Positions 4,632 to 32,060 of a stretch of DNA of 64,000 nt are shown here, in pieces (within the stretch, counting starts at the first letter, position 1; each line of letters begins with the position of its first letter). This DNA is from Nostoc sp. 'Peltigera membranacea cyanobiont' 210A (GTDB lineage Bacteria > Cyanobacteriota > Cyanobacteriia > Cyanobacteriales > Nostocaceae), in the NCBI RefSeq assembly GCF_002246015.1, contig NZ_NOLJ01000009.1, positions 1-64,000 of the forward strand. The letters run 5' to 3'. Both the position numbers and the translations under genes were made by a program. The notes beneath the pieces are model-generated. The model had not been told where the DNA came from. It did no database searches and worked only from the letters and a program-made list of their open reading frames with translations.

Positions 4632-5177
4632 TTATGAGAACAGTGATAATTGCTCCATCTGAATATTATTTTCAGTTGTAGTTGCTTTAACAGGGTGTTT
4701 GTTCTTATTTGACGACCTGTTACCCCACCCTTCTTTCGCCGCGTGTTTGACTACACGAGAGCGGATATCAGCAGCTAGGGTTTCATAATCAGAGCGGATT
4801 TTTTCATACTGAACTGGGGTTGTACCAATCTTCTCCCACAGTTTATCGTATTTGAAATTCTCAAAAGGTCTGTGCCTGATGAGGGCATCATAACTTGCCC
4901 AGAGGTAAACATCTGTCCATTCAGATGAAAGCGGCACTTCAAAAGCAATTGGCATCATAAGTGCAACAACTTCGCTGCTAGAGGCGAGTTTACCTACTTC
5001 TCCCTTGTCTATCTCTTCTAGCGCTGCATCTAATCTATCGACTGCGATCGCTTTTCCTACCCAGGATGGAATTGACTGTTGCCAGCCGTTTTGCTGAGTT
5101 ACAATTGGCCCGAATGGCACTAAGAAAAGCCGAAACACTTGCGGGTTAAGCACTTTGCAATTGTTTTCGTAATTCAT
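4632..5177 (-). CDS. unknown protein ending in clamp-binding motif QLSLF
   Basis: A 181-residue protein of unknown family. The last six residues are QLSLFS, which contains the consensus pentapeptide (QL[S/D]LF) by which proteins bind the bacterial beta sliding clamp. The clamp gene of this element is at 14487-15863. Its start codon lies beside the C-terminal end of the IS4-type transposase gene (overlap 5146-5177), so the residues before VLNPQVFRLF may come from the insertion element and the original start may have been lost. A basic, lysine/asparagine-rich linker precedes the QLSLF tail. Confidence 0.55.
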   Translation of the reverse strand: MNYENNCKVLNPQVFRLFLVPFGPIVTQQNGWQQSIPSWVGKAIAVDRLDAALEEIDKGEVGKLASSSEVVALMMPIAFEVPLSSEWTDVYLWASYDALIRHRPFENFKYDKLWEKIGTTPVQYEKIRSDYETLAADIRSRVVKHAAKEGWGNRSSNKNKHPVKATTTENNIQMEQLSLFS

Positions 5178-6514
5178 GCCGGGGTTTCGTCATCAAGGGG
5201 TAAGCTTTTGGGCGACGTTTACGGACTCGTGGTTCACTACGACCTGGGCGTTCTGGAACAGCCTTCTGAGCAATAATTTTAAGTAAAGTGCGATAAATTT
5301 GGAGACGTTTTGTTGAAGTTGCGTCTAATAATTTGGGAATAAAGTTAATTAAATGGTGGCGAGTACCTTGGAGTGATAGGCGATTTGGAGGAGTACTACA
5401 AGTAGTTCCAGCCGACCACATTAAACTACGAAGTAAATTATAAGCTACCAAAAAAACATGAATTTCTTTGCGTATCATTGGGGGCGTTTTACATCGGAGA
5501 ACATCCATACCCAAGGTAGTTTTTATATGTCTTAAATCTAGCTCAACATCCCAACGTTTACCGTAAAGCCCAACAATTTCAAGAGTAGAATAAGAAGATT
5601 TATCTAAAAGAGTAGTAATTAAGCTGACTTGTTGAGTGCGAAAACCAGGAATAACAATGTAATAGTAAACTTCCCGTACAGTTATGGAAGGAGGTAGAGC
5701 ATCAAATTCATCTTTATTCAATCCTTTTGGACAACTTTTAGGCTTAGACCAAGTAACTGATTTGTCGCAATTTCCAACAATTTTGCCTTTTCGCATGGTT
5801 GTTGTGCGAGATTGATGCTTCCGAAATATAACATCACAACCGAGTTTAGTAATCGTAACCATATCGGCATAAGCGCAAAAAGCTCTATCCCCTAAAAGTA
5901 CATCATTGGGTTTGAGAAAACCATAGAGCCTCCTTGCTAATTTAATATCATGAGTGTTCAATACATCGATGCACAAAGCAACAGCAGCCCCCGTAACTAA
6001 ACTGAATATCACACCAATTTTGGCTATTGGAAAGCCACATCCATCTTTTTGAGTGCACGGTTAGCGGGTATTCTTTTTGGTTTTCTACAGTGTCTGGCAT
6101 AGATACCGTCGAGCCGTCTATCACTAAAATATTTCGACCACACCATAAATGCTCTTGGGTTACTTTTTCTTCCAGTTTTTGTGCTGAATAATTGAAAAGC
6201 TTCTCTAATAATTTTTCTGGCAATCTTGCCCTAGCTTGACAGTAAGCACTCGTATCAGATGAAGGGATTTCTACATCTGAACCTGCTAAATGAGCAATTA
6301 TTTTACTCACAGCATTATGACAAGTCTTATCACTATCCAAAACTTGCGACAAAAATGCCCACAAAGTAATAAATGGGTCAAATAATCGCTTTTTATATTT
6401 AATTTTCACTTCAGAGAGTGCAAGTTTTATTGCAGATTCCGGCAATAGTTCTTTAAAAGGTAAACCTAAACTTTGATTAAATTTATCCTTGAGGATTTGT
6501 ACTCGTAGTGTCAC
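5146..6514 (-). mobile_element. IS4-type insertion sequence with frameshifted transposase
   Basis: The transposase is read in two frames. The N-terminal part (5948-6514, 188 residues) includes LVIDGSTVSMPD with the first catalytic Asp. The C-terminal part (5146-6012 plus upstream codons) has LLGDRAFC with the second Asp and YGKRWDVELDLRHIK, which fits the IS4-family Y-x2-R-x3-E-x6-K signature exactly. The break is near 6060: a stretch encoding EYP is followed by CTAACCG where CAACCG would keep the frame, so a one-base insertion is likely. Terminal inverted repeats and target duplications were not identified, so the outer limits are approximate. Confidence 0.75.
5146..6514 (-). pseudogene. IS4-family transposase, split by a frameshift near 6060
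   Basis: All three DDE acidic residues are present, but they are divided between two reading frames. After the frame change, the N-terminal product ends with an unrelated tail (CCCFVHRCIEHS). IS4 elements do not normally use programmed frameshifting, and no slippery run such as A6 is at the junction, so this is a decayed copy, unless it is a sequencing error. Confidence 0.7.
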
Positions 6515-6700
6515 AGTAGTAATTATCGTATTCGCTTGCTCGTCTCAAAAAAAGTATTTCACAGACGAGTAAGCTTTTTCTACCTTCAAAAACTTTTTGG
6601 GCAACCCTCCACCGTTATCGCTTCCATTCCACAGTCTCTACAAAAAATAGCGATCGCAGCCAAGCGCCCACTGCTATTAACGCATTAATATTTGTAATGC

Positions 6701-6943
6701 TTATGCAGCAAGGTTTATAGCTTTTCTTAGTGCCATTCCAATTGGCCCGACGATGTATTGAACAATTTCATGACTTGCTCCTGCTAGATCGAGTAGACTG
6801 GCTGTTACAACTTTGTTAATTCCTTGGCTGGTTAGTAACTGAAGTATCTTTCTAGTGCTAGGAGTAAGAATTTCGCTAGCTTTTTGGCTTTTGCTGTTAC
6901 GGATGGTTTCTTCGACATCGAATAAGCTTTGCTGCTGGTTCAT
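6701..6943 (-). CDS. small unknown protein with N-terminal QQSLF clamp-like motif
   Basis: An 80-residue protein, last in the minus-strand run after holA and holB. Residues 4-8 are QQSLF, close to the beta-clamp-binding consensus, followed by acidic residues. The rest (TPSTRKILQLLTSQGINKVV, LLDLAGASHEIVQYIVGPIG) looks helical with no known family. A hairpin at 6965-6996 separates it from holB. A clamp- or loader-associated role is only inferred from motif and location. Confidence 0.5.
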   Translation of the reverse strand: MNQQQSLFDVEETIRNSKSQKASEILTPSTRKILQLLTSQGINKVVTASLLDLAGASHEIVQYIVGPIGMALRKAINLAA

Positions 6944-6964
6944 ATTCCTTATGTGTAAATAAAT

Positions 6965-6996
6965 ACTGCCAGCTAGAAATGCTTCTAACTGGCAGT
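6965..6996 (-). other. hairpin between holB-like gene and the 80-residue gene
   Basis: ACTGCCAG (6965-6972) pairs perfectly with CTGGCAGT (6989-6996). On the minus strand it follows the holB stop and is followed by ATTTATTTAC, a weak U-rich tract, so it may be a leaky terminator that lowers expression of the small gene downstream. Confidence 0.5.
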
Positions 6997-7021
6997 GCTT
7001 TTTGATAATGGATGGGTTTTG

Positions 7022-7897
7022 CTATGGCAGAAGTAGGTTATCCCAAACGCTTCTAGGAGTAACGTGATGCAGCAATTGCTTCCTTGCTTGAGTGAATTTA
7101 GCTAGCAATTGAGTGCTTTTTAATTTCTGCCACCAGTTGTGTTGCAGGTAGGTAAGCAGCCATAATTGTGTCTCGTGATTCCAGCTTGAGATGGAGTTAC
7201 TCAAACTGAGTGCGTTGAGAATATCGTCAGGAGGCACTTCCAGTTGACTTGTGATTTCTTTTGAGATGGAAGCTAACATTGTGATGTTGGCGATCGCTTG
7301 ACCAGGACTGCCTGAACTGATAGCTAGTATTTTTTCTGTTACCTCGATTTGTTGGTCTTTGAGGACAGAGATAACCTCCTCATCAGTTAACCTTTGGAAA
7401 GGTATGATTTGACACCTACTCTTGATAGTGGGTAATAGCTTTTGAGGATAGGACGAGATCAGGATAAATGTTCCAGTTTTCGGTTCTTCCAGCGTCTTGA
7501 GAAGTTTGTTGGCGGCGGTAGGGTTGAGCATATCTGCTTCGTGGATAATCACCACCTTTTGCTTGGCCTTGACTGCACTAGTTGAAAGAAATTCGATTAC
7601 CTCGCGCACCTGTTCTACTCGAATAGCAGGTATACCTTTCTGCTGGGGGGTGTTTTCGGAATGGGTTGGTTTGATTTGTAAGATGTCTAGATAGTTATTT
7701 TCTCCTGCGATCGCGGAGCGACCCCCTCTTGCGAGTATCGCATTTGCGATCGCCAGAGCAGTTTTTCCTTTACCTACTCCCTCAACTTGACTGCTAAATA
7801 GGTATGCAGGAGCAATTTTATTCTGTTCGATTGCTTCAGTCAGCAGAAGTTTGGCGGTATGCTGTCCGGTGATTTCTGTAAATGGGTTGTTTTTCAT
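7022..7897 (-). CDS. holB: DNA polymerase III delta' subunit (clamp loader)
   Basis: A 291-residue AAA+ clamp-loader subunit. It starts PFTEITGQHTAKLLLTEAI, has a P-loop variant VEGVGKGKTALA, a sensor/Walker B region KVVIIHEADMLNPTAANKLLKTLEEP, and the SRC arginine-finger motif (KSRCQIIPF) common to delta' and gamma/tau. Its start overlaps the stop of the holA-like gene by 4 bp (ATGA), so the two are translationally coupled. An in-frame insertion (ARGGRSAIAG, from 7707-7745) after the P-loop helix comes from a small palindromic repeat that also occurs in dnaX. Confidence 0.88.
   Translation of the reverse strand: MKNNPFTEITGQHTAKLLLTEAIEQNKIAPAYLFSSQVEGVGKGKTALAIANAILARGGRSAIAGENNYLDILQIKPTHSENTPQQKGIPAIRVEQVREVIEFLSTSAVKAKQKVVIIHEADMLNPTAANKLLKTLEEPKTGTFILISSYPQKLLPTIKSRCQIIPFQRLTDEEVISVLKDQQIEVTEKILAISSGSPGQAIANITMLASISKEITSQLEVPPDDILNALSLSNSISSWNHETQLWLLTYLQHNWWQKLKSTQLLAKFTQARKQLLHHVTPRSVWDNLLLP
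7707..7745. repeat. HIP1-containing small repeat inside holB
   Basis: The stretch beginning GCGATCGCGGAG and ending GAGTATCGCATTTG matches 14299-14337 inside dnaX with only a few differences. It encodes an extra loop in the AAA+ domain, read in frame. Confidence 0.6.
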
Positions 7898-8853
7898 ATC
7901 GTAGAAATTTCAGCAATTCGACTGGTTAGGTTGTCAACTCCGCTTTTGAGTTCGGCTTCGAGTTGTACAAGTAAAATAAGGCTGTGTTTAAGCTTTTGAA
8001 CGCCTACAAACTTGACTTCCTCTTTGAGGTAATACAATCTTTTGGGGTTTTTCAGTTCGGCTATTTCTGCAATCTTAGTATCAGATAAATTAGTTTCTAT
8101 CCCAGCTTTGGTTATTAACCAAGTGCGGAAAATAGAGGTAAGTGTTGCTACTATTTTGAGCGGGTGTTCATTATTATCTAGTAGTTTAGATACCTGCACT
8201 ATTGCTAAAATTGAATGGTTTCTTAGCATAGCAATAGTAAGCTTTAGGTAGTCAGTATTCTGATTGCCAACGAGATATTTTACTTCCTCAATAGAGATTA
8301 TTTTTCCAATTGCATAAACAGCAAGTTTAGCGAATTCGCTATCGGCTCGCGCAGTGTTATTGCCAATTGCTTCAGCTAGGTAATCTGTAACATCTGGCGT
8401 GAGTTTAACTTGATGGATGGCTGCATATTTTCCTATCAAGTTAACTATCCCTTTTTTATCCCAACTAGGGACGAGGGGAAACTCTTCTTGTTGGGCATAT
8501 TTTAGGATAGTTTTTACTACTGTTCTGCGCGAATCTGGCTTTTTGTTACCAGTAATTAGTAGAATGTTGCTTGAAGGTATTCGGGAAAGGTGATTTTCAA
8601 GTTCTTGGTTATTATCTTCATTTGATAAACTTCCAATTAGAGAGTCGCTGTCTGTATGAATAATTTTGTTACCTTCTCCAAAGGGCAAAGTCATAACCTC
8701 GGTAAAGACCTTGGCAGCAATATTTCTCTCATTTCCAGATAGCTTGACGTAATTGAAAGCTTTCCATTCCGCATGAACATTTTGATTCACTAAATAATCA
8801 ATTTTTTGATTGAGTGAGTAGCTATCTTCGCCGTAGTATAGATATACAGTCAT
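7894..8853 (-). CDS. holA: DNA polymerase III delta subunit (clamp loader)
   Basis: A 319-residue delta subunit. The N terminus MTVYLYYGEDSYSLNQKIDYL matches the family start (fyGeD...l...i). An AAA+-like region without a P-loop follows (ILLITGNKKPDSRRTVVKTI), and then the helical clamp-loader collar (IVATLTSIFRTWLITKAG...LYYLKEEVKFVGVQKL). Delta opens the sliding clamp ring. It overlaps holB by 4 bp. Upstream at 8881-8906 there is a motif shared with two other operons of this element. Confidence 0.85.
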   Translation of the reverse strand: MTVYLYYGEDSYSLNQKIDYLVNQNVHAEWKAFNYVKLSGNERNIAAKVFTEVMTLPFGEGNKIIHTDSDSLIGSLSNEDNNQELENHLSRIPSSNILLITGNKKPDSRRTVVKTILKYAQQEEFPLVPSWDKKGIVNLIGKYAAIHQVKLTPDVTDYLAEAIGNNTARADSEFAKLAVYAIGKIISIEEVKYLVGNQNTDYLKLTIAMLRNHSILAIVQVSKLLDNNEHPLKIVATLTSIFRTWLITKAGIETNLSDTKIAEIAELKNPKRLYYLKEEVKFVGVQKLKHSLILLVQLEAELKSGVDNLTSRIAEISTI

Positions 8854-8880
8854 GATAGATTAGATAAACATTTATTTATC

Positions 8881-8906
8881 AGGCGTTAGTCGTAAGCGGT
8901 GGTTTA
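8881..8906 (-). promoter_or_regulatory. shared upstream motif (copy 1), before holA
   Basis: AGGCGTTAGTC followed after a few bases by GTGGTTT on the + strand, i.e. AAACCAC...GACTAACGCCT on the coding strand, just upstream of holA. Nearly the same arrangement occurs at 37867-37893 and 33104-33128. A small stem (GATAAA/TTTATC) lies between it and the start codon. Confidence 0.4.
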
Positions 8907-10061: not shown

Positions 10062-11888
10062 CTAGAAAAGAGATAACTGACGTTTATTACCTTCTAGTAT
10101 TTCAGGAGCGGCTATTTTGAGGATTTCTTCTCGTCTTTTTTCTATAATGTCAAGATAGTATTGACGTGAATAGCTCTCATTTGTGCTGGTATTAGTAATA
10201 CCTCTGATTCCGTAATAGTAAATTACTACATCACCAGGCTTTCCTAATTTAAGAAGTTCTTTTTCCCCAACACGAATTTTGCGAGTAATACAGAGTTTTT
10301 CTATCGGGTATTTTCCTGATAAAATCTGCGATTTTACTTCTCTGAAATATTCCTCTGCCGTAGATTGGTTTTGGATTAAGTAGGTTAGATATTCAACAGG
10401 GAATTCTTTCTCTAGCCTTGAGCGAGAACGGTTTCTCCAACTACCTTTGCGGATAATCCAGTTATCTTTCAGCCATAACAAATAGTTCTTAGTTCCCCTT
10501 TGCGGAATAAACATTGCATTGGCAATAAACTCTAATTTGACGGTTATTCCTTTGGGTAATTCAGACTGAAGTGTGGCATACACTTTTTCTGGGTTGGGGT
10601 GAGTAAAGAACACACCGTCAGTATCAACTTCTACAGGGGTTGCGCCAGCATGATTGATTATCTCAATCATGAATTGTAGGATGCGCCGACCGTAAGCTGT
10701 TACCAAGGCGGCTGCTTCCATATCGTTGAAGGCGAGTTCCGATGTTCCGAAGAACCCAAACTGAGAATTAGCTAAAACTTTGGTGGATTCTCTTTTTTCC
10801 TTGGCAACAATGTCTCCGGTGCTGGCAACTTGTTCCAACCTTGATTTCTCATTTACCAAATATTGCAAGATGCTCAAGCCGATTCGCTTTGTATCTTTAC
10901 GAGAGACAATCCCTTTCGACAATATGGTTTTGGGGTACATGGAACTGATATCGATGTATCCAACCTTTTTATATAGTCCTGGAATAGAGTAGGCTATCCC
11001 CCCTTGAAATTTATACTTACGGTCGGGTTTGGGTTTGTATCCTGGGTAGTGATGCGAGAATATTTGCTTCCACTTGGTGCCGTTACCAGCGAGGGCTAAT
11101 TGCTGGAGGTTCATTCCCGGTACAACCAGTGCTTCATAGTGGTATGAGGGTACAAGTCTGTTAGCTATGAGTTGCGTATCTTCCAAGTCGTAAATAAGGT
11201 AATCCTTGATTTTCTGCCATCCCCTACTACCAGAACCGGCTTTCCAGCAGGCGAGAATTTCTTCATAGGGGAGAACCAGTCGCGCTTGCTTACGCAATCC
11301 CATTTCTAGTACCACCTGTTTAAGCGATCGCCCGTTAGTAAGTTCCTTGGCGACAAAATCCCACCTGAGAACGCAGATAAAGATATCTACGTGCAGGCAG
11401 TTGCGGATGAATACCTCTCGAATTTCCAGTGGTTCGCCGCGTACTTGGGCAGTTCGGATAGTGCGCTTCTTAGATGCAATTCCAAATGGATGAGAAATGC
11501 CATGTAACTCGCAGCGGGTGATGAGAAACGGTAGGTCAAATTCTGTTCCATTGTAGGTGTAAATTACTTCTGGTTTGCTTGCTTCTAGGTGTTTGAAAAA
11601 CTCCAGGAGGATTTTGCTTTCGGCTTGATCCATAAAGATGGCAATCTCTCCTATCTCCCTCATACAGCCAATTGCATAGATACGATTTTCTCTTGGGTTT
11701 ATCCCTGCCGTCTCAATATCGACTACCAGAGTTTTGAGCGTTCTGTAGGTCGGAATACTTACTGTGGGATGCCACTCAGGTATTGGGGTAGTATCTGACC
11801 AGAATATGTTGAGTCTTTCCTCATCAACGATAATTTTATTACCAGATTTGGTAATAAAATCTCGGTGGTTATAATTCATAATATCCAA
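10062..11888 (-). CDS. family B DNA polymerase with C-terminal clamp motif
   Basis: A 608-residue family B polymerase with both activities apparently intact. Exonuclease motifs: VVDIETAGINP (ExoI), YNGTEFDLPFL (ExoII), YDLEDTQL (ExoIII). Polymerase motifs: IDISSMYPKTIL (A), KVLANSQFGFFG (B), VDTDGVFF (C), plus a KN[YF]-type palm segment (TKNYLLWLKDN). It is shorter than E. coli Pol II (about 780). The last five residues are QLSLF, the clamp-binding consensus; Pol II ends in a similar QLGLF, so processivity from a sliding clamp is likely. It follows the CoiA-like gene with almost no gap. Met4 (11879) is an alternative start. Confidence 0.93.
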   Translation of the reverse strand: MDIMNYNHRDFITKSGNKIIVDEERLNIFWSDTTPIPEWHPTVSIPTYRTLKTLVVDIETAGINPRENRIYAIGCMREIGEIAIFMDQAESKILLEFFKHLEASKPEVIYTYNGTEFDLPFLITRCELHGISHPFGIASKKRTIRTAQVRGEPLEIREVFIRNCLHVDIFICVLRWDFVAKELTNGRSLKQVVLEMGLRKQARLVLPYEEILACWKAGSGSRGWQKIKDYLIYDLEDTQLIANRLVPSYHYEALVVPGMNLQQLALAGNGTKWKQIFSHHYPGYKPKPDRKYKFQGGIAYSIPGLYKKVGYIDISSMYPKTILSKGIVSRKDTKRIGLSILQYLVNEKSRLEQVASTGDIVAKEKRESTKVLANSQFGFFGTSELAFNDMEAAALVTAYGRRILQFMIEIINHAGATPVEVDTDGVFFTHPNPEKVYATLQSELPKGITVKLEFIANAMFIPQRGTKNYLLWLKDNWIIRKGSWRNRSRSRLEKEFPVEYLTYLIQNQSTAEEYFREVKSQILSGKYPIEKLCITRKIRVGEKELLKLGKPGDVVIYYYGIRGITNTSTNESYSRQYYLDIIEKRREEILKIAAPEILEGNKRQLSLF

Positions 11889-13058: not shown

Positions 13059-14420
13059 TTAGGCAGTTTGTAATTGAGACTTCATCTGAAGCTCTTGTAC
13101 CAGTTGTACCCATGCAGGTGCTTTTTTACCTTTAATGGGAGTAAGATTGTTCCAATGCCTTTCGAGTTCAGATTGAGATAAATGTGGGAGTTGTTCCTTA
13201 CCCCAATTGATAGCATCTTGGATTGTTTTCCAATTAGTCCAAGGTTGTTTTTCTTCTTTGATATTGGTTAACTCAATGAGTGTCGCTTCCAACCAAAGTT
13301 TAGCTGCCTCCGAGTCACGCATTAACTGTTGTCTTGACATTAAGAGGGCAATACTTGCCTGAATCTGGGTTAGTTCCCACATCTGAGAAATAGTAACGAG
13401 TTCCTGCCAAGTTTCTTCCTCCAGTTGAGTAATTTGTCTATTATCAGGAGCAGTTTTAGCCACTAGTAGGTCTTTGATAAAGCCAGTTAAACTTGAGTAT
13501 ATGACGAATGGGTTTTTGCCATACTCGATTAAGTCTTGGAGGATTTGTAAGTTAGCTGTTACGTCTCCTTTAGCAAGGTTTTCGGTTAGGGTAAGTAGGT
13601 CGTGTTCGGGAACGACACCTGATAATTCCCAAACCCAGTTTGGTGTGATTTCATCTACTCCCAGATTGCTCAATTGATCAAGCAATACAAGACAGTTGCG
13701 AATAAAACCTCCACAAGACTTGACGATCGCCCAAATACCAGGTGCGTTAATGTTGATGTTTTCATTCTGGGCAACTTTTGATAAATACTGAACAAGTGTT
13801 TCTAGCCCTACTCTTCTAAAATCAAACTTTTGACAGCGCGAGATGATAGTTTCAGGAACCTTGTGTATTTCAGTTGTGCAGAAGATGAAAACTACATGAC
13901 GGGGTGGATTTTCAATTGTCTTGAGAAGCGCCTGCCACGATTGACTGGTCAGGGCATGACATTCATCAATAATGAAAATTTTGTACCTTCCCTCAACTGG
14001 TGCAAACTGGGTAGTGGAAATTAACTCGCGGATTGTTTCTACCCCGCTATTGCTGGCAGCATCTAACTCAGTTACATCCAGGGAAGAAGAGGCTGTAATT
14101 CCCTTACATGAATTGCATTCTCCGCAGGGCTTGGTTGTCGGCTCTTGGGTTGACTGACAGTTGAGGGATTTGGCGATGATGCGGGCGGTACTGGTTTTGC
14201 CCGTGCCTTTGGGGCCGTTGAATAGATAGGCGGGTGCAATCTTCTGGAGTGCGATCGCCGTCCCTTGCGCGTCTCCTTTAGGAGAAGGCGGGCGTTGCGC
14301 GATCGCGGAGTGACTCCCCCCTGGGAGTATCGCATTTATGAGAGTACGGACGATATGTTCCTGCCCGATTACTTCATTAAGGGTCTGGGGACGGTATTTG
14401 AGATGTAGTGGTTGGTACAT
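13059..14420 (-). CDS. dnaX: DNA polymerase III gamma/tau subunit (clamp loader ATPase)
   Basis: A 453-residue clamp-loader motor. MYQPLHLKYRPQTLNEVIGQ is the family start; P-loop GPKGTGKTSTAR (about 69-80); a zinc module with Cys in LNCQSTQEPTTKPCGECNSC; Walker B IFIIDECHALT; SRC motif (ISRCQKFDF); then the collar domain. It is gamma-length, without the long tau tail that binds alpha and DnaB. An insertion of about 26 residues (PGGSHSAIAQRPPSPKGDAQ and following) sits between NAIL and KIAPAYLF, just before the P-loop, and comes from a palindromic repeat at 14255-14337. It lies downstream of dnaN. Confidence 0.92.
   Translation of the reverse strand: MYQPLHLKYRPQTLNEVIGQEHIVRTLINAILPGGSHSAIAQRPPSPKGDAQGTAIALQKIAPAYLFNGPKGTGKTSTARIIAKSLNCQSTQEPTTKPCGECNSCKGITASSSLDVTELDAASNSGVETIRELISTTQFAPVEGRYKIFIIDECHALTSQSWQALLKTIENPPRHVVFIFCTTEIHKVPETIISRCQKFDFRRVGLETLVQYLSKVAQNENININAPGIWAIVKSCGGFIRNCLVLLDQLSNLGVDEITPNWVWELSGVVPEHDLLTLTENLAKGDVTANLQILQDLIEYGKNPFVIYSSLTGFIKDLLVAKTAPDNRQITQLEEETWQELVTISQMWELTQIQASIALLMSRQQLMRDSEAAKLWLEATLIELTNIKEEKQPWTNWKTIQDAINWGKEQLPHLSQSELERHWNNLTPIKGKKAPAWVQLVQELQMKSQLQTA
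14255..14337. repeat. palindromic HIP1-rich repeat inserted in dnaX
   Basis: Contains TCTCCTTTAGGAGA, GCGATCGC and GAGTATCGCAT. The 14299-14337 part matches 7707-7745 in holB. It adds about 26 in-frame residues to DnaX. Confidence 0.6.
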
Positions 14421-14486: not shown

Positions 14487-15863
14487 TTAGGCAGTCGCCG
14501 CTTCTTTTTTCGTTCGTGGCGATCGTGAGGTTAACTTACCTTTGGTAGTATCTTTCGCTACCACGGATGGCGTTTCTATTTGAGGAGTTTCACTATCGTC
14601 TGTTGCCTGTGCCACATTTGCTACTTCTTCAGTACTACACTCAGTTTGAGTGCTAACTTCTGTTACTTCTTGAGTACTAGGCTCACTTTGAGTGCTGACT
14701 TTTGCCTTTGTACTTTGGCTATTTACCTTTCCAAACCCCTGCTTGATTTCTACAGGCATTACCAGATACAACTGATTGAGCAGCCCTCCCATCGGGCAGA
14801 CAATGACTGGTTGCGTGGGTTTGTTGCACCGCACCACGATTTCATCGGTACTGATATGCTTTAATCCTTCGATAAGGTAGTCGATGTTTAATCCAATACT
14901 GATGTTTTCTGAATTACTAGTTACTGATTTCATCAGTACCGAGTCAACTGCATCCCCAATATCAGTAGCTTCAGTGTATAGTGTTGCCTGTGTAGCTTCC
15001 AATTCCCAGAGGATTTTGACAACCTTTTGCTTGCGTTCGGCTAGATAACTTACCCGCTTGAGTGCGCTCTCAAATCCCTTGCGCTCTAATGTAAATTCAT
15101 ACTCAAACGACCGGGGAATCAAGCTATTGATTTTGGGATATTCTCCCTCCAGAAGCCGGGAAATGAGCTTTGTATTGGGAAGGCTAAACTCGATAGTTCT
15201 ATCTGATAGAAGAATATTGCACACGCTCGTATCGGCGCTTTGAGAGAGAATTTTGTTTAACTCGCCAAGTGACTTACCTGGAACAGTGAAGTTGATTGGG
15301 TCAGAATATTCGCTATCGAGTGTTCCTGTTACTAGCGCTAATTTGTGACTATTTGTACTAGCAGCTTGCCACTTGTTGGTATCAATTTTGAAGTTGACAC
15401 CAGTTAAAACCAACTTTGTCTCGTCGCTGCTGGCGCAATAGAGTGTCCCTTCAAGTGCGGCTTGGAGTTTCTTGGCACTTAAATTTATCTCTGTCGGATT
15501 TTCCCCCTTGGGAAGTGTTGGGAACTCGTCAGATTTTCCGCCAATTAGTCGGCACTTACCGCTATTGTGAGTAATTATGCAGGCTTGGTTTTCTACTTCT
15601 AGAGTAATTTCGCCTTTAACATTACTAACAGTATCGGTTAGTAGTTTGGCAGGAAGTGCTACCTGACCTGAAGTTTCGACGTTAGCGGTGGTTGTAGTAT
15701 GAATTGTGAGGTTAAGGTTTGTGCCTGTTGCTGATACTATCCCGTCTTCATCTGCAATCAGTAAGATATTTCCTAAAATTGGGTCAGTGGGTTTAGGACT
15801 GATTGCGAGGTAAGCAGTTTCTAGAATTTCTGCGAGTTTAGATTGTTCAATGGTTAGTTTCAT
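14487..15863 (-). CDS. dnaN: DNA polymerase III beta sliding clamp with long C-terminal tail
   Basis: A 458-residue clamp. The three-domain beta fold is recognisable: MKLTIEQSKLAEILETAYLA, ...SGKCRLIGGKSDEFPTLP, LTGVNFKIDT...ASTNSHKLAL, ...ISRLLEGEYPKI, and the normal C-terminal end QLYLVMPVEI at about residue 370. Beyond it are about 85 extra residues, rich in Ser/Thr/Glu with imperfect repeats (VSTQSEP, VSTQTEC, STEEVANV) and a basic end (SRSPRTKKEAATA). Ordinary clamps stop at MPMRL/MPVR, so the tail is unusual and could bind partners. Clamp-binding peptides occur in several proteins of this element. Confidence 0.9.
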   Translation of the reverse strand: MKLTIEQSKLAEILETAYLAISPKPTDPILGNILLIADEDGIVSATGTNLNLTIHTTTTANVETSGQVALPAKLLTDTVSNVKGEITLEVENQACIITHNSGKCRLIGGKSDEFPTLPKGENPTEINLSAKKLQAALEGTLYCASSDETKLVLTGVNFKIDTNKWQAASTNSHKLALVTGTLDSEYSDPINFTVPGKSLGELNKILSQSADTSVCNILLSDRTIEFSLPNTKLISRLLEGEYPKINSLIPRSFEYEFTLERKGFESALKRVSYLAERKQKVVKILWELEATQATLYTEATDIGDAVDSVLMKSVTSNSENISIGLNIDYLIEGLKHISTDEIVVRCNKPTQPVIVCPMGGLLNQLYLVMPVEIKQGFGKVNSQSTKAKVSTQSEPSTQEVTEVSTQTECSTEEVANVAQATDDSETPQIETPSVVAKDTTKGKLTSRSPRTKKEAATA

Positions 15864-15943: not shown

Positions 15944-16927
15944 TTAGTAAGGCAGTTTTTCCATCTCAGTACTGTATGCTGTATAGTCATGACCTGCTGT
16001 ACTAGGAGGAAGTGCTGCTATTGGCATATCGCCTGCACCTATCAAGCGGTTATGTTCTGCTACAACGGTTGATGTTTTACCGATGCGGTGAGAGAATTCG
16101 GGATTTGCCTGCATCGTTGTTTGGATATCGATTTCTTTGCCCTCTGAGAAGAATTCGAGAAAATCGCTGCCATCGGGGTTTGGTGATTTGTAGGAAGTGA
16201 CAACTGCTACCCAGGATTTATCTCTTTGGTTAACTGCTTCTTTCGGTTCAAGGGATGGTGTGAAGGTGGGTTGAAATGCAGCAAGGCGATGAAACTCTGC
16301 ACGTTTTTCAGCGACAGTTGTATCAGTAAATCGGGCAAATGCAACCTCTAGTTCGCGTTGGAATTGCTTGTAAGCCTCGCCAAATTTTGATGATGCAACG
16401 CCTTTGATTGACAAGACAATTGGTACTGAGTGCAGGTTGTTATTATTTTCATCAACAAGTTGCAACAAGTAGAATCGTCTCAATACTGCGGCATCTTTGC
16501 CGAGTGCTTGGTACATTTCGTACCCATCAGGTGATTCGTACACCCCGACAATTTTGCCGTCATCGCGCTGTTCAATATATCTGGGAGAAACATCAAGAAT
16601 GTGCATTCTGGGCGATTGCAACAACACTCCCATTTCTGGCGTGCCACTGGAGAAGGTGTGCTTGTGTGTTGGTTCTTGTCCTTGCCAGTTAATTGCTGCT
16701 AAATACTTATCTTTTATAAACAACCCAACTTTTTCTGCTTCCATGTGGTTGATGACTTGGCAGATGCAGATATTGCTAATCGGCGCATTGTACTCAGGAT
16801 TGGCAAATTTAGAAATAGCTGATTTACGCTTTTGTATGTTTGCCCCATTCTGAACGTTTTGTTGAGGGATTTCAGGCTCTGAGACTGTGCTTTCTTCAGT
16901 AGTAGGCTTTGTTTGATTTCTTGCCAT
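15944..16927 (-). CDS. cyanobacterial plasmid-type protein, possibly DUF5895
   Basis: A 327-residue protein directly upstream of dnaN on the same strand. The first 45 residues are a polar Pro/Gln/Thr-rich tail, then a compact domain (CQVINHMEAEKVGLFIKDKY, PRMHILDVSPRYIEQRDDGK, GYEMYQALGKDAAVLRRFYL) and a C-terminal linker ending YSTEMEKLPY. I associate it with a domain of unknown function found in cyanobacterial plasmids (DUF5895), from memory only. Its place beside dnaN suggests a DNA-replication or ssDNA-related role; this is not shown by any motif. Confidence 0.5.
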   Translation of the reverse strand: MARNQTKPTTEESTVSEPEIPQQNVQNGANIQKRKSAISKFANPEYNAPISNICICQVINHMEAEKVGLFIKDKYLAAINWQGQEPTHKHTFSSGTPEMGVLLQSPRMHILDVSPRYIEQRDDGKIVGVYESPDGYEMYQALGKDAAVLRRFYLLQLVDENNNNLHSVPIVLSIKGVASSKFGEAYKQFQRELEVAFARFTDTTVAEKRAEFHRLAAFQPTFTPSLEPKEAVNQRDKSWVAVVTSYKSPNPDGSDFLEFFSEGKEIDIQTTMQANPEFSHRIGKTSTVVAEHNRLIGAGDMPIAALPPSTAGHDYTAYSTEMEKLPY

Positions 16928-26115: not shown

Positions 26116-27168
26116 CTATGGTTTAATTATTTTGACGATTCTAGTAGCTACATTTGTAGGGTTGTTTGAACTCAAAAAGGCATCTTTATCTACCAACTCG
26201 ACATAGCTCTTATTGCTCTGTAGCCACTCTTTTAAACTTTGATACTTCCGGTTGAAGAAAACCGACTCAGGTACGACTGAAACTAATACACCACCTGATC
26301 TAATTAACTTCCAAGCTTGATAGATATGCTCGACAAGTTCGCAAAATGGAGGATTCATGATACAGGCATTGTATAAATGACTGGGGTTAAACTCCAGAAA
26401 GTTTTTCCCTACGAGATTAAATCTTTTGAGTTCTAGAATTTGTCTTAGATTGTAATTCACTTCAACTACCTCTAATTGAACATTTGGGTAAGTTTGAGTG
26501 ATATACTCAGCAATATTTCCGCTACCAGCGCTAGGCTCTAAAATTCGCCAATTTGGTTCAATATCTGCCAGTTGAACAAGTCGTTGACAGACTGGTTTGG
26601 GAGTAGGAAAGAAATCTCCAGATTTCATGCCAATGATTTCTAACTCAAGCTTATTAAGTTGTTGCTTGGTAGTATCAATTGCTTCAGGTTTTACTACCTG
26701 TTGAATTTCTGTTATTGCTGATATGATTTCGCCTGATGTATTTAACCCCGCGCGACTGAGAGATTTTACCCAGTCTTGGTAATATTCGCCTTCTAGTATT
26801 TCTTGGACTTTCTGGCTAATTTCTCCACTTTGAGAAATCCTAAATAGCACTTCCACCTGTGATTTACGAGATATACCGCGTAGTATTGGTGGGATATTTC
26901 CTACTTCCCACATTTGTGCGATCGCAAATAGCCAAGACTGAATAATCTCAAGCTCAATTCCTTCTTGGATTATCCCTTGAGCTATGGTTTTACGGCGCTT
27001 TGTTGCCCTTTGACTCCCAATAGCAGGATTTTTCTTTTGGTCAATAGTTGGCTGCATGGAAGCGGCTAGATTGCGGAGAGCTTCTGCTTTGTCTAAGTTA
27101 GGAATATTGAAAATATCTAGTGATGAGTTATCCTCATTGCAGGACAGATTCAGTAGAGATAGTTGCAT
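26116..27168 (-). CDS. N6-adenine DNA methyltransferase-like protein, N-terminal QLSLL
   Basis: A 350-residue protein. The catalytic domain is in the C-terminal half: FFPTPKPVCQRLV (target of the PTP motif), LEPSAGSGNIAEYI (SAM-binding motif I), VVEVNYNLR (motif II), CIMNPPFCELVEH (catalytic NPPF motif IV). This is the layout of class I N6-adenine methyltransferases. The first 180 residues are helical and may give DNA specificity. Residues 2-6 (QLSLL) resemble the beta-clamp-binding motif. It overlaps the next gene by 35 bp and is the last in a three-gene set. Confidence 0.75.
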   Translation of the reverse strand: MQLSLLNLSCNEDNSSLDIFNIPNLDKAEALRNLAASMQPTIDQKKNPAIGSQRATKRRKTIAQGIIQEGIELEIIQSWLFAIAQMWEVGNIPPILRGISRKSQVEVLFRISQSGEISQKVQEILEGEYYQDWVKSLSRAGLNTSGEIISAITEIQQVVKPEAIDTTKQQLNKLELEIIGMKSGDFFPTPKPVCQRLVQLADIEPNWRILEPSAGSGNIAEYITQTYPNVQLEVVEVNYNLRQILELKRFNLVGKNFLEFNPSHLYNACIMNPPFCELVEHIYQAWKLIRSGGVLVSVVPESVFFNRKYQSLKEWLQSNKSYVELVDKDAFLSSNNPTNVATRIVKIIKP

Positions 27169-28158: not shown

Positions 28159-28165
28159 AAAAATC

Positions 28166-28190
28166 TATCCCAAATTGGTTTTTTGGGATA
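28166..28190 (-). terminator. terminator of the PRTRC operon
   Basis: TATCCCAAA (28166-28174) pairs with TTTGGGATA (28182-28190); on the minus strand GATTTTTATG follows. It sits between the ThiF-like stop (28221) and the next gene's start (28158), marking the end of the ubiquitin-like cassette. Confidence 0.65.
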
Positions 28191-28220
28191 AATATGCGTG
28201 AGCTATTTGTGGTGATTTTT

Positions 28221-29060
28221 CTACGGTATATAGTATTTTTTCAGATTGTCGATACTTGCGTATAAACTTCGAGTTGACATTGCTTTGAGGTCAAAATAAC
28301 TGGCGAACTTTTTCAACCCCCCCGTAAGGGTTAATTCTAGTAAGTACTGGGCTGCGATCGCACTCGTCATTTTATTGACAAATAGCGACTGATAATTTCG
28401 TGCTTGAATTTCCGCACATGAGAGGTTATTGTCGGTGAGTTCTTCCAGTTGAGGAACTAACAATTCCGGGTGAACTAGCGCCGGGGAGGGAAGATGCAAC
28501 CAGAATTTAGGTTTGTCTGGGTTATTGGCAGCTTGAACTATATCAAAATTAGAGTGCGTTCCAACTACTACTTGGCCAGAGTGGTCGCTGTTTCCACAAT
28601 CCAGCCAAAATAGCGATGCTGGCTCATTTGCACTGTTCAGTTCGAGAACTGAGTGAACTTTGCTCCTGGCGGCGCTGTTATCCACACAACCAATAATTAC
28701 TGTTAGGGTGTTCCATGAATTGGTGGTGCGAATCATATCTTCTTCAAACCAGTCGCAAATGGCTGTAATCTCAATTCCATACTTGGCGCTGCATCTTGCA
28801 GCCAGTGTTTGTACCTTTGGTAGTCCAATTTCAGCTTGTTGATAATTTTGGCGGCTGATATTCTTAAGTTCGACAGTATCGCCATCAATGATCGTAAAAT
28901 TAATTTCTTTCCTCGTGCGCTGGAGTTGCAGAATAATTCGACATAAATCTTCTGCAAGAAACCCGCCTGTTCCTCCTACTCCTACTAAGACGAAGTTAAT
29001 ACGGGTATGATTGCGAGGTAAGACGGGTAAAGCTTGTTGGTAAGTAGTTAATTCGAGCAT
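28221..29060 (-). CDS. PRTRC system ThiF-family (E1-like) protein
   Basis: A 279-residue E1-like adenylating enzyme. FVLVGVGGTGGFLAEDL holds the G-x-G-x2-G nucleotide loop; IIDGDTVELKNISRQNY is the E1 D-x-D...N-x2-R-Q motif; IIGCVDNSAARSKV and FWLDCGNSDHSGQVVVG follow. It would adenylate the C terminus of a ubiquitin-like protein. It overlaps the JAMM gene by 13 bp. In PRTRC cassettes this is the ThiF component; here it is the last gene before the terminator. Confidence 0.85.
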   Translation of the reverse strand: MLELTTYQQALPVLPRNHTRINFVLVGVGGTGGFLAEDLCRIILQLQRTRKEINFTIIDGDTVELKNISRQNYQQAEIGLPKVQTLAARCSAKYGIEITAICDWFEEDMIRTTNSWNTLTVIIGCVDNSAARSKVHSVLELNSANEPASLFWLDCGNSDHSGQVVVGTHSNFDIVQAANNPDKPKFWLHLPSPALVHPELLVPQLEELTDNNLSCAEIQARNYQSLFVNKMTSAIAAQYLLELTLTGGLKKFASYFDLKAMSTRSLYASIDNLKKYYIP

Positions 29061-29644
29061 TTTACCTGTGGCGGAAGTTCAAATATGTGATTGGGGTTGA
29101 TGTCGAAAAAGTGATTGTATATCCCGATGCGGGTGTATATTGTGGGAATGGTATTCAGTGTGCCGATGATCGCGAACACTCGAAATTTACCTTTTTCTTC
29201 TAGATTGTCCGCACTTGAAGGGTAAGCAGCTAGAGTTCCATGACTGTGTATTTCCAATAGCCCATCTGTATAGCTTTTATGGAGTGCGCTTTCTAAAGAT
29301 AGGACGTGAGTAGAGGACGCAGTTTGCAGTGGCGTGTGACACCACCATTGGTAGTTTGTCACTCCCAAGTAGAATAGGATTTCCTGTTGGGGGTTGATAC
29401 TGGCAGTATTGATAATATCGGTGATTACAAGGCTTGGGACTTTTGGGACTTTCAGACGAAAGTAGGGTTCAAGGGGTTGGAGTCCAGCAACTTGAGTTTG
29501 AGTCACTTGCAAGCAAACCTCTAACTCACGGCGGTGCGATCGCAAGAAAAGCCCATTTGCTGCCAGCCAGTATTCCTGAAGTTTTTGGCTGTAGGGAGGA
29601 AAATTATTACTTGTAGCGAAGTGGTAACTGATAAAGGCATTCAT
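29048..29644 (-). CDS. PRTRC system protein A, JAMM/MPN metalloprotease
   Basis: A 198-residue protein with a complete JAMM metal site: H133-S-H135, then seven residues, S143, two residues, D146 (LLEIHSHGTLAAYPSSAD). The first about 110 residues are strand-rich. JAMM proteins in ubiquitin-like systems cut after the C-terminal glycine of ubiquitin-like proteins or remove them from targets. It lies between protein B and ThiF; 2 bp separate it from protein B. Confidence 0.8.
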   Translation of the reverse strand: MNAFISYHFATSNNFPPYSQKLQEYWLAANGLFLRSHRRELEVCLQVTQTQVAGLQPLEPYFRLKVPKVPSLVITDIINTASINPQQEILFYLGVTNYQWWCHTPLQTASSTHVLSLESALHKSYTDGLLEIHSHGTLAAYPSSADNLEEKGKFRVFAIIGTLNTIPTIYTRIGIYNHFFDINPNHIFELPPQVKCSN

Positions 29645-29646
29645 GG

Positions 29647-30369
29647 CTAATTGAACAAATGATTGATAATGTCTTCTGGGGTTGTGACTTTCCAGCTATG
29701 AACGGAAACAAGGTCACTTGAAGGGTAGGATTTGGGTTTAGACTCGTGCAATTTGATTAGCTGGTTGCAGATATTGTCGGGATGAGTTTTTGACTTGCCT
29801 TGGGACAAGTCTTTGTTAAAGGGTGATTTCCAGAATAGATCCCAAGTTTGGCTTATAGTTGCAGCACTGCACATACCGGGAGAATTTCCCCCAAAGCAAA
29901 TACCAGAGTCGTCCCAAACGTTAGGTAGAGGTGGCTTGTACAGTTGCGCGTCTGGTTTAAATACCCTCCCTTTAACTGCCCAGAGGTAATATTTACTACT
30001 GCATCCAGCAAAGAGGAATGCAGGCATGGGGACAGTAATTACTTTTGTTTCCTGTCCCATAATTTGAATTTGATATTTTTGGGGAGAGTAAAACTGAATA
30101 ATTGCCTCTCCCTCTGGATTTTTACCCCACCAAATCGTGTTGCTAGAAAGCCATCCAGATGTAGCAGTTTTACTTGTGAAGGCTTTCTCTACTGCTTCAG
30201 GGGAAAGAAATTTGTACTTAGATTTTTTGCCTTCGTGTTCGACTAAAATAAACTGTCCTTTGAGGATAACTAACTGCGCTAGTAAATCATCTTGGGGAAT
30301 ATTTCCAAGCAAAATTTGCGATATACTTTCTAAGTTAATTATTGGTAATATATTTGTATCTACATTCAT
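29647..30369 (-). CDS. PRTRC system protein B, E2-like fold
   Basis: A 240-residue protein when started at the ATG at 30369, which overlaps the preceding stop by 4 bp (ATGA); an upstream ATG in the same frame gives 7 more residues. LPNVWDDSGICFG (about 149-160) closely resembles the E2 active-site segment HPN...G-x-I-C-L, with Cys158 as the candidate thioester cysteine. TWDLFWKSPFNKDL follows. PRTRC B has been grouped with prokaryotic E2-like proteins, so it would receive the ubiquitin-like protein from the E1. Confidence 0.75.
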   Translation of the reverse strand: MNVDTNILPIINLESISQILLGNIPQDDLLAQLVILKGQFILVEHEGKKSKYKFLSPEAVEKAFTSKTATSGWLSSNTIWWGKNPEGEAIIQFYSPQKYQIQIMGQETKVITVPMPAFLFAGCSSKYYLWAVKGRVFKPDAQLYKPPLPNVWDDSGICFGGNSPGMCSAATISQTWDLFWKSPFNKDLSQGKSKTHPDNICNQLIKLHESKPKSYPSSDLVSVHSWKVTTPEDIINHLFN

Positions 30370-31094
30370 GCTTTTGATGCTTGATTCCAAATTTTGACTG
30401 CTGCTTTCCGAGCAGCGAGAGATGTTTCTAGCAAGTGAGTAAGCTTATTTGATTTTTCCATCATCGAGACGGCTTCTTTCCACTTTTGACTGAGAAACAT
30501 GATATTTTTATAAGTCCATTCCAGCCAATCGCTTGTTTCACACGTAACATCTAGCCAGATATTTTCAGTCGAGTAATCTATAATTCGTATGGCTATATCT
30601 AAATATTGAAGATGACTTTTGTAACGACGGCATAAATTGACAAGTTTATTGAAGTAAATTTCTTCTGCTAGAGCAATGTAATCAGGAGTAAAACCAAAAT
30701 TTAGTTCCCATTGGCTTATATTGTACCCTTGCCCCATCAACGACAGTAGGAACTTTTCTGAGTATTCTAGTTCCTCGAAATCTTCATGCCACCATTCAAC
30801 TTTTTGTGGTGATACAGGAATACTATTATGTTCAGGACTAAACTCAATCTCATCGATATATTCTATCGGGAAGAGATGATCATTCACCAGTTGAATAAAT
30901 TCAATTTCTCTATCCATATAGGCGCTTGCTGGATGTGATTGTTTATCAATATGAATGGTTGATTCTAGCCATTGTTCTGGGAATATTTTTTGATACAGGC
31001 TTAAGAGATTTACTCGTTCGGAGAGATTTTCTAGATAGATAATTGCTGTTAAACAAGTAATGGGTATTTTGAATGATTGTATGTTTGCAAGCAT
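30366..31094 (-). CDS. PRTRC system protein F-like
   Basis: A 242-residue protein whose place between protein C and protein B matches component F of PRTRC cassettes. It is largely helical and acidic in the middle (EYIDEIEFSPEHNSIP). The C-terminal half (YSTENIWLDVTCETSDWLEW and the basic helical end) has no catalytic motif I can see. The assignment rests on gene order and length rather than on strong sequence similarity. Confidence 0.55.
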   Translation of the reverse strand: MLANIQSFKIPITCLTAIIYLENLSERVNLLSLYQKIFPEQWLESTIHIDKQSHPASAYMDREIEFIQLVNDHLFPIEYIDEIEFSPEHNSIPVSPQKVEWWHEDFEELEYSEKFLLSLMGQGYNISQWELNFGFTPDYIALAEEIYFNKLVNLCRRYKSHLQYLDIAIRIIDYSTENIWLDVTCETSDWLEWTYKNIMFLSQKWKEAVSMMEKSNKLTHLLETSLAARKAAVKIWNQASKA

Positions 31095-31103
31095 AATTAA
31101 TCA

Positions 31104-31124
31104 GCCGCCATAACTCATAGCGGC
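31104..31124 (-). other. hairpin between protein C and F genes
   Basis: AGCCGC and GCGGCT form a 6-bp GC-rich stem in the 43-bp gap. Without a T run it is unlikely to end transcription; it may tune expression within the operon. Confidence 0.3.
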
Positions 31125-31137
31125 TATAAATTTGTTA

Positions 31138-31560
31138 TTACAGTACGGGATATTTACTCGTGGCAGCAGGTTGATGCTTAAGGCTTAGAGTTACTTTTTC
31201 GATGTAGGTTTCCCAATTTTGACCGAGCTTGATAGCTTTTTCTATCTCAGGTTGTAGGGTAATTAAATTTTCGAGACTAATTTGATTTTTTATCTCCAGA
31301 AGCTTTATCTGCCACCCTAACTTTAGTGCAGGATTTATTTCTTCAGAACTATTTTTAAATTCTCTGAATTGACTCCCCTTAGTACCTGCTTTTTTTACTA
31401 AACGAATTGAAACCGTATCATCAGTTGTTTGTCGTTCAATTTCGGCATTAGCATATTCTGGAAAGTAGACGCTAATGGCTGTTTTGAGGGTATTGTCATC
31501 TTGGGCGATCGCCTCATCAAGAGAAATTTCTTGTCCTTCGATAATCGCAATGTACTTCAT
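31138..31560 (-). CDS. PRTRC system protein C, ubiquitin-like (beta-grasp) with C-terminal extension
   Basis: A 140-residue protein. Residues 1-62 follow the PRTRC C pattern: MKYIAIIEGQEISLDEAIA, then a helix (NTLKTAISVYFPEYANAEIE), strands (DTVSIRLVKKAG) and a terminal AGTKG (Gly59, Gly62) where the family normally ends. Here 78 more residues follow (SQFREF... to SKYPVL), mostly helical. As the cassette includes a JAMM protease, cleavage after the GTKG segment to expose a glycine is a reasonable hypothesis, not shown. Confidence 0.75.
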   Translation of the reverse strand: MKYIAIIEGQEISLDEAIAQDDNTLKTAISVYFPEYANAEIERQTTDDTVSIRLVKKAGTKGSQFREFKNSSEEINPALKLGWQIKLLEIKNQISLENLITLQPEIEKAIKLGQNWETYIEKVTLSLKHQPAATSKYPVL

Positions 31561-31565
31561 GGTAA

Positions 31566-32060
31566 TTAAAATAGTGACAGTTGGTTGTTAGGCGTAGGTG
31601 TTTTCTCTTTATCTTCAGACAGTTTACGCTTTTGTACTTGTCTTGATTGTTCCTGTCTATTCTGATGTATAGTCTGCTTTTCCATCCTTTGCTTGCAGAT
31701 ATCTAACATCTCTGGGAGAGATTTTTCTAAATCCTGTAGCAGGTTATTGATGACAGGATGAGATGTTATCTCAGCAAGGTTCATTATCTTGATAATTGGA
31801 GGTGCGCCTTTGATTCCAATTGAGACAATTACTGTTTCAGAATTTGGTATTATTTGAATAGTTATTAGGGTGGTTTTTGTGTCAGAATTGCCTAAATCTA
31901 TCTCGGTAGATGAATCTTGGTTTATAACTTCAGTGTTTACTAATTCATCTAATGTTTCTTCTAAATCGCTATTCTCCTGAATATCAGGATTAAAATCTCT
32001 ACTGCTATAACTGTCTTCAAGGTTAGTTACATTCTCGTCAGGTGATATTTGACTGCTCAT
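31566..32060 (-). CDS. PRTRC system protein E-like, C-terminal clamp motif QLSLF
   Basis: A 164-residue protein directly upstream of protein C, in the position of PRTRC protein E. An acidic disordered N terminus (1-65), a small strand-rich domain (TTLITIQIIPNSETVIVSIG ... NLLQDLEKSLPEMLDICKQRM) and a basic tail that ends NNQLSLF. QLSLF is the beta-clamp-binding consensus at the very C terminus, where it is free to bind. A stop codon follows directly (31566-31568). This links the ubiquitin-like cassette to the sliding clamp. Confidence 0.6.
   Translation of the reverse strand: MSSQISPDENVTNLEDSYSSRDFNPDIQENSDLEETLDELVNTEVINQDSSTEIDLGNSDTKTTLITIQIIPNSETVIVSIGIKGAPPIIKIMNLAEITSHPVINNLLQDLEKSLPEMLDICKQRMEKQTIHQNRQEQSRQVQKRKLSEDKEKTPTPNNQLSLF

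Follow-up and report, generated by a model that had tools for sequence, protein, structure and literature searches.

The window analysed here is a stretch of 64,000 nucleotides from contig NZ_NOLJ01000009.1 of Nostoc sp. 'Peltigera membranacea cyanobiont' 210A. Judged from its gene content, the element to which it belongs is a large plasmid that encodes its own, nearly complete replisome, comprising a family-B DNA polymerase (PolB), a sliding clamp, a clamp loader, a primase-polymerase (PrimPol) and a single-stranded DNA-binding protein (SSB). The subject of the present analysis is the pentapeptide QLSLF, which is encoded at the ends of three unrelated genes of this block, namely PolB, a small protein here called E, and a gene that is referred to as the orphan and is interrupted by an insertion sequence (IS). 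The features concerned are as follows:

10062-11888, minus strand: family-B DNA polymerase with 3'-5' exonuclease, terminal QLSLF at 10065-10079 (Pfam, motif)
31566-32060, minus strand: E protein, terminal QLSLF at 31569-31583 (motif, homologue conservation)
4632-5111, minus strand: orphan gene, 3' part (residues 66 to end), QLSLF at 4638-4652 (profile match to residues 66-223, motif)
5112-6738, minus strand: IS4-family insertion inside the orphan gene (inverted ends, target duplication, Pfam)
6739-6943, minus strand: orphan gene, 5' part (residues 1-68), QQSLF at 6920-6934 (profile and intact homologues)

A first-pass annotation had read these peptides as the sign of a clamp-centred network private to the element. 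Its three sites are placed correctly, and the frames and the differing codons are also as it had given them. QLSLF forms the last five residues of the 608-residue PolB (CAG TTA TCT CTT TTC) and of the 164-residue E protein (CAA CTG TCA CTA TTT), and in the 3' part of the orphan gene (CAA TTA TCA CTG TTC) it is followed by a serine and the stop. Two related peptides that had been listed beside them, QQSLF at 6920-6934 and QLSLL at 27151-27165, are present as well. The pocket of the sliding clamp is described as accepting Q-aliphatic-x-[L/M]-[F/L], with a possible contribution from a free C-terminal carboxylate (PMC11139829, PMC3716654). QLSLF fits this consensus in all three cases, and the QQSLF at the N terminus of the orphan fits it only loosely. 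Among 348 open reading frames (ORFs) of the 336-kb contig there are six instances of the relaxed pattern Q[LMIV]x[LM]F, three of which are C-terminal and all three of those inside the replication block. The expected number of terminal matches, derived from the internal rate of the motif over these largely non-overlapping ORFs of at least 60 amino acids, is 0.069 (Poisson P 5e-5), and none of 2000 composition draws reached three. Moreover, the whole 8.3-Mb genome was scanned in six frames for Q[LF]x[LF]F with a stop or Trp immediately behind it, a strict pattern that is blind to Ile, Met and Val at the second position and to residues after Phe, with the reversed pattern as control. Of 54 matches, 17 end in TGG and were left out, and 37 end in a real stop; 35 of the latter lie in frames of at most 100 amino acids, the only longer frames being PolB (608) and E (164). 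For this strict pattern the comparison with chromosomal proteins proposed by the annotation favours it, since PolB and E alone end long frames. The signal of the motif lies in gene context rather than in a genome-wide count, and the QLSLF peptides look selected.

The PolB of the window contains DIET, DISS, NSQFG and DTDG, which we take to be its active-site motifs. At the end, QL[ST]LF is found in 14 of 14 aligned PolBs (one with two residues after it), at identities down to 42 percent; the motif is kept in 17 of 17 copies from genome contigs, and four more full-length copies end in QLSLF, QLSLF, QLSIF and QLTLF. C termini were read for 14 of the 18 cyanobacterial plasmid records (all but CP047244, AP018234, CP063786 and CP097481) and for 5 of the 9 Deinococcus records. 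Against the equivalog models of E. coli Pol II (NF004420, NF004421, NF004422) the best score is 53.6 bits, compared with a cut-off of 570, and the sequence is that of a distant family-B member. Further afield, the PolBs of Deinococcus plasmids that have no clamp gene (L035, L202-L205) carry [QG][PQ]GLFD 15-34 residues from the end in all five proteins read, in three of them as QPGLF. A viral relative with 27 percent identity (L144:9884-12112) ends in EQLSLFV, and no clamp was found on its 65-kb record, which is possibly a fragment; the other six viral ends (L143; L145-L149, one common tail) have no motif, and L150 is too short to judge. A rule that PolBs have no motif where there is no clamp was dropped, being broken by the Deinococcus QPGLF and the QLSLFV of L144. 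It was also observed that PolB fragments, often the C-terminal part ending in GKQLSLF, are scattered through genomes belonging to a single genus within the same family (L183, L184, L186, L187, L189, L195). Some of them lie on multi-megabase contigs, and a few other fragments end in QLSLL, HLSLF, RLSLF or QLILF.

Regarding E, the motif was kept in 10 of 10 E proteins. A search of a sample of 388 genomes of the order gave 24 matches in 20 genomes, the window included: 21 carry QL[STK]LF in the last six residues, two carry QISFF, and one is frameshifted, its last piece ending in QLTLF. The profile used in this search included the motif, so it was rebuilt without the last 12 columns, and the motif-free profile recognises E in all 23 loci other than the window. 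In an alignment of 33 rows the Q, L, L and F columns are conserved at 0.97, 0.91, 0.91 and 0.97 and the third position at 0.55; the ten columns just before them range from 0.03 to 0.52, as in a poorly conserved linker. Residues 155-161 have a predicted local distance difference test score (pLDDT) below 50 in a single-sequence model that is itself of low confidence (predicted template modelling score 0.32). In four further modules, at the limit of what the profile detects or beyond it, the protein in the position of E, taken as the product of the gene just upstream of the ubiquitin-like gene, ends in QLTLFGI (Oscillatoria), QISLF (Nostoc N6), QRSLFDLPS (Leptolyngbya) and QLSLF (Planktothrix). 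Three of these four tails fit the consensus strictly; for any one protein, even a loose match within its last nine residues has a chance of only about 0.0045. The name "PRTRC E-like" given at first pass holds for gene position and not for sequence: the window E has no match to the PRTRC_E model TIGR03741, hhalign against a profile of three PRTRC E proteins gave a probability of 0.1 percent, and identification as PRTRC_E by sequence was rejected. No relative of E was found on the viral contigs.

The third QLSLF had been assigned to a protein at 4632-5177. The peptide is real; the protein is not intact, and represents the 3' part of a gene split by an IS, with insertion sequence encoding the first 22 residues of that ORF. 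A profile of intact homologues, used in a search of the organism's own genome, aligns its residues 66-223 with positions 4638-5111 and its residues 1-68 with positions 6740-6943. It therefore spans both ORFs, and the QQSLF protein (6701-6943), which had been counted as an additional motif bearer, is no extra member and represents the 5' part of the same gene. On this alignment QQSLF and QLSLF belong to one gene with motifs at both ends, a bivalent arrangement. Between the two parts lies an element with inverted ends of 16-19 bp (5112, 6738) and a target duplication of 10-12 bp (about 5102-5111 and 6739-6748), whose ORFs match Pfam DDE_Tnp_1 over the cut-off and Nterm_IS4 just under it. An intact homologue of 224 amino acids on plasmid pC052_E (L021:24957-25631) reads MNQQQSLFD...QLSLFS, and the profile search also found an intact relative ending in QISLF on contig C13 of the organism's own genome. 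In Aulosira, the orphan gene has been split independently by another transposase (L028:24724-26757).

Among 54 orphan loci, 46 (two of them partial frames) have Q[LIMV]x[LM]F within the last nine residues. Of the eight without the strict motif, six are truncated or rearranged, one ends in QLSPHILHQ (L051) and one has QGSLF (L063). The N terminus in the PolB group is mostly QQ[QH]SLFD, with the variants QEQSLFD, QQQTLSD and QQQIFD; in the other group it is EQ[LIM]N[LF]I, AQINLI, DQLSFI or TQLNLL. A homologue is predicted to be all-helical with a mean pLDDT of 82.7, apart from a disordered 27-residue tail (residues 198-224, pLDDT below 50). No Pfam family over the cut-off, no PHROG and no PDB sequence match was obtained for the orphan, and the predicted structure of the homologue had no PDB or BFVD match at E 0.001. 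Homologues lacking the motif, which the annotation had named as the observation that would speak against it, were looked for and are rare among the cyanobacterial homologues read.

These three genes are accompanied by the following replication genes and by one further candidate carrier:

2092-2475, minus strand: single-stranded DNA-binding protein (Pfam SSB, E 5.4e-23)
7022-7897, minus strand: clamp-loader delta', HolB-like (Pfam DNA_pol3_delta2, E 8.9e-35)
7894-8853, minus strand: clamp-loader delta, HolA (Pfam DNA_pol3_delta, E 2.6e-28)
13059-14420, minus strand: clamp-loader DnaX, gamma/tau (Pfam)
14487-15863, minus strand: sliding clamp DnaN with an 86-residue C-terminal tail (TIGR00663, E 1.3e-79)
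26116-27168, minus strand: methyltransferase starting MQLSLL (27151-27165), a weak clamp-motif candidate
32063-33097, minus strand: primase-polymerase with PriCT-2 (Pfam)

DnaN scores 267.8 bits with TIGR00663 (cut-off 137.65) and has three Pfam DNA_pol3_beta domains, as befits a sliding clamp. A plasmid DnaN is present in 18 of 18 cyanobacterial plasmid records with PolB, and clamp-loader genes are present on all 14 PolB plasmids that were opened. Other large cyanobacterial plasmids carry the same replisome part, and 11 of the 14 opened are typed as conjugative. Parts of the block (the orphan with PolB; E; PolB) are also found on chromosome-sized contigs, for example L045, L058 and L155/L178, and the system can therefore be integrated. 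Throughout the counts given here repeated records were kept (L154 = L031; L167 and L208 = L032; L050 = L029; L052 = L025). The clamps of PolB plasmids extend past the canonical C terminus by a low-complexity tail of 56-100 residues in all 15 clamps read, and most of these tails are basic at their end. The idea that this tail is the conjugation target of the ubiquitin-like operon described below was dropped, as the tail also occurs in a Gloeothece and two Calothrix plasmids without a PRTRC ThiF match. The MQLSLL start is shared by the window methyltransferase and six plasmid loci, all more than 80 percent identical. Three further tails were observed in the window: a 139-residue protein at 1599-2018 (minus strand) ends in EDLDQEPPF, with homologue tips of the DIPF, HIPF or PPF type that resemble the C-terminal tip of SSB; the window SSB itself ends in ANANF; and a DUF5895 protein (15944-16927) ends in EKLPY, most homologues having LPY or PPY.

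A second class of system carries the motif on another polymerase. In 30 of the 54 orphan loci a family-A polymerase (PolA) stands in place of PolB, and in 29 of these Q[LMI]SL[LF] occurs inside PolA, the thirtieth being a fragment; the motif lies at residue 239-277 where the protein is long enough, and is QLSLF in an Oscillatoria plasmid. In the host chromosomal PolA no Q[LMI]SL[LF] was found in the 897 residues read. PolB-type and PolA-type loci each have the motif, and therefore the same putative docking peptide is found on two unrelated polymerases in related systems. Further carriers are HolB with an N-terminal QLDLL or QLELL in three plasmids, a helicase/methyltransferase of 1.7 thousand amino acids ending in QLSLFDL or QLSLFEL in two Calothrix plasmids, an MmeI-like methyltransferase ending in QLSLF, and a protein that begins MEQLSLF and weakly matches DnaX domain III. 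In the organism's own genome, contigs C9 and C13 hold a second set with PolA (QMSLL), the intact orphan relative (QISLF) and a long, N-terminally extended DnaN; the two contigs may be one plasmid. An IS200/IS605 transposase of the Leptolyngbya plasmid pLBX (L093:10539-10997) ends in the clamp-motif-like DQLNFFNE, and clamp binding by transposases has reportedly been observed in one study (PMC4549789).

E is the first gene of an operon beside PrimPol whose remaining members are a ubiquitin-like protein, an F-like protein, an E2-like protein, a JAB peptidase and an E1-like protein:

28221-29060, minus strand: E1-like ThiF adenylyltransferase (TIGR03736, 136.1 bits, cut-off 144.75; conserved residues)
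29048-29644, minus strand: JAB/JAMM peptidase, PRTRC A-like (Pfam Prok-JAB)
29647-30390, minus strand: E2-like protein, PRTRC B, Prok-E2_D (Pfam, E 7.8e-45)
30366-31094, minus strand: conserved helper occupying the PRTRC F position (homologues in the corresponding location)
31138-31560, minus strand: ubiquitin-like protein in the PRTRC C position (alignment, position)

The JAMM-type residues E88, H133, H135, S143 and D146 of JAB are invariant in 9 of 9 sequences, C165 of the E2-like protein in 11 of 11, and the glycine-loop and Cys residues of the E1-like protein are conserved in 9 of 9. We take these to be the catalytic residues of the three enzymes, and by their conservation the operon looks active. 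In each of the 28 E loci (24 taken from the sampled genomes and four from named plasmids, with L206, L207 and L209 repeating L021, L022 and L211), the next gene on that strand is a relative of the ubiquitin-like gene, which either overlaps E or starts no more than 140 bases after it. In the window protein the conserved stretch ends in GTKG and about 78 further residues follow; the Planktothrix protein stops at the Gly of the GTKG position. The longer form looks as if cutting by the JAB peptidase would be needed.

The composition of the cluster corresponds to operon type 6d of Iyer et al. (2006), for which a ubiquitin-like protein, a helical protein, an E2-like protein, JAB and an E1-like protein are described, with A. 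variabilis among the hosts (PMC1779556). A ubiquitin-like protein, JAB, an E1-like protein and an E2-like protein with its conserved Cys are all found here in one cluster, the first by alignment and position only, a homologue matching PRTRC_C at no better than E 0.12. As in the PRTRC system, the same five components stand together (PMC1779556); the differences are that the PRTRC models remain below their curated cut-offs here and that the window E ends in a clamp motif, which four PRTRC E proteins from other phyla do not. The A, B and ThiF models give significant E-values at 39.2, 60.2 and 136.1 bits, below the cut-offs of 101.8, 131.45 and 144.75. Of eleven plasmid records, seven show a PRTRC-type ThiF match, always under the curated cut-off, and the profile detected E in four of these; it detected none in the four records that have no such match. 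In Chroococcidiopsis, the pair of E and ubiquitin-like genes lies about 36 kb from ThiF. Relatives of E1 occur on 196 plasmid records, many annotated PRTRC among the matches listed; 60 of the 196 records were listed and six opened, and the module of Gloeocapsa PCC 7428, for example, was left out.

The best explanation of these observations, to which we give a probability of roughly 0.78, is that the window encodes a plasmid replisome in which the QLSLF tails are clamp-binding motifs and E and the orphan are dedicated clamp partners. It draws directly on sequence, position, conservation and gene context, from which we infer binding, a preference for the plasmid clamp rather than that of the host, and the functions of both E and the orphan. 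The tails suggest that unrelated proteins sharing them all meet on the sliding clamp. PolB would ride the clamp through its free C-terminal peptide and thereby gain processivity, and E and the orphan would hold the motif on a flexible tail; by predicted disorder, the motif does lie in a flexible terminus in both the orphan homologue and E. With motifs at both ends, the intact orphan could link the pair of pockets within one clamp dimer, or connect two separate clamps. E, encoded between PrimPol and the ubiquitin-like/E1/E2/JAB operon, would probably recruit to the clamp either the activity of that operon or the primase. The gene order and the tails of the E-position proteins suggest a ubiquitin-like system tethered to the clamp. 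A more specific proposal, that E is a targeting subunit docking a ubiquitin-like conjugation and removal system of the plasmid on the clamp, where the clamp or its riders would be modified by a ubiquitin-like protein as a plasmid counterpart of PCNA ubiquitylation or SUMOylation, is speculative and is regarded as rather unlikely.

Known systems offer partial parallels. E. coli Pol II is likewise a family-B polymerase whose last five residues, QLGLF, are a clamp motif (PMC3716654); the window PolB differs in its 608 residues, in being plasmid-borne with its own clamp, loader and PrimPol, and in scoring far below the Pol II cut-offs. Hda is described as a non-polymerase with a clamp motif in a disordered N terminus (PMC11139829), which recalls the orphan; the latter has no AAA+ Pfam match, is predicted all-helical with no PDB fold match, and has a motif at both ends. 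A plasmid-borne dnaN is common in general, with a DnaN relative at E 1e-10 in 159 plasmid records, whereas here it is joined by a polymerase, a loader and motif-bearing accessory proteins, and the clamps of PolB plasmids have their long tails. The passages seen of the account of operon type 6d name no E protein and draw no link to a clamp (PMC1779556), and no function of the PRTRC system was given in the literature passages and listings examined. Among the titles and abstracts listed from an open-access library, from which most subscription journals are absent, none deals with clamp motifs of PRTRC operons or with motif-bearing accessory proteins in the replisomes of cyanobacterial plasmids; the term "PRTRC" is also found in promoter names (PMC5868059).

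Several observations weigh against the plasmid-replisome explanation. The genome-wide scan gave 54 matches compared with 62 for the reversed control, and hence no excess. The accessory set is not constant, the orphan being found in 8 of the 14 opened PolB plasmids and missing from 6, and E being found in 11 and missing from 3. The IS disrupts the third QLSLF protein on the present plasmid, and an IS5-type element interrupts PolB in a T. variabilis plasmid (L026:20025-22730), so neither the orphan nor PolB is indispensable everywhere. At one pocket segment the window clamp reads TNSHKL, a deviation from the TDGHRL of the host clamp. Gln is absent from four PRTRC E tails of Proteobacteria and Deinococcus (ALDLASLL, GTDLSSLL, GADELF and MENLFS), and the clamp motif on E may therefore be a cyanobacterial trait.

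The alternative that survives best accepts the peptides as clamp-binding motifs and lets them serve the host chromosomal clamp, or both clamps, so that there would be no private network; it is held to be possible, at appreciably lower probability than the plasmid replisome. The host clamp has TDGHRL and MP and thus shows the same main pocket segments, as assigned by the E. coli numbering. TDGHRL is carried by several sister plasmid clamps too, and therefore no general code separates plasmid and host clamps. Furthermore, the N. carneum plasmid AP018183 has an orphan gene with QISLF and appears to have no clamp gene of its own: that genome has just two clamp genes, one on C1 and one on C3, and by their coordinates these contigs are probably the chromosome and a different plasmid. 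The Deinococcus PolBs with QPGLF, on plasmids lacking a clamp gene, point the same way. This alternative is opposed by the co-occurrence of clamp genes with cyanobacterial PolB in all 18 plasmid records and by the loader genes of the 14 opened plasmids. Of the network proposed at first pass, there stand the clamp motifs as recognised by sequence, their retention in homologues of all three proteins, and the element's own clamp and loader; that it is private is not established. It is very improbable that the terminal peptide is some other C-terminal signal, such as a degradation tag or the ligand of a different hub. Its hydrophobic character and its place at the extreme C terminus would suit such a role, but related motifs also stand at the N terminus of the orphan, PolA has its version in the interior of the protein, and in several copies between one and four residues come after the motif; it is simpler to take the peptide for the known motif that it matches exactly, on an element that encodes a clamp. 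Chance can practically be set aside, and so can the spread of a single DNA segment among the three genes by recombination; nothing was found in their favour beyond the shortness of the peptide, and against them it counts that the codons differ in all three copies, the Poisson probability for the terminal motif on the contig is small, and each family keeps the motif on its own, a conservation among homologues that already contradicts this reading.

With the plasmid replisome as the preferred explanation, two orphan families, E and the orphan helical protein, are named as likely clamp partners. The motif of E, situated beside the ubiquitin-like gene, turns the role of the PRTRC-like operon into a testable question, namely whether this operon acts at the replication clamp.

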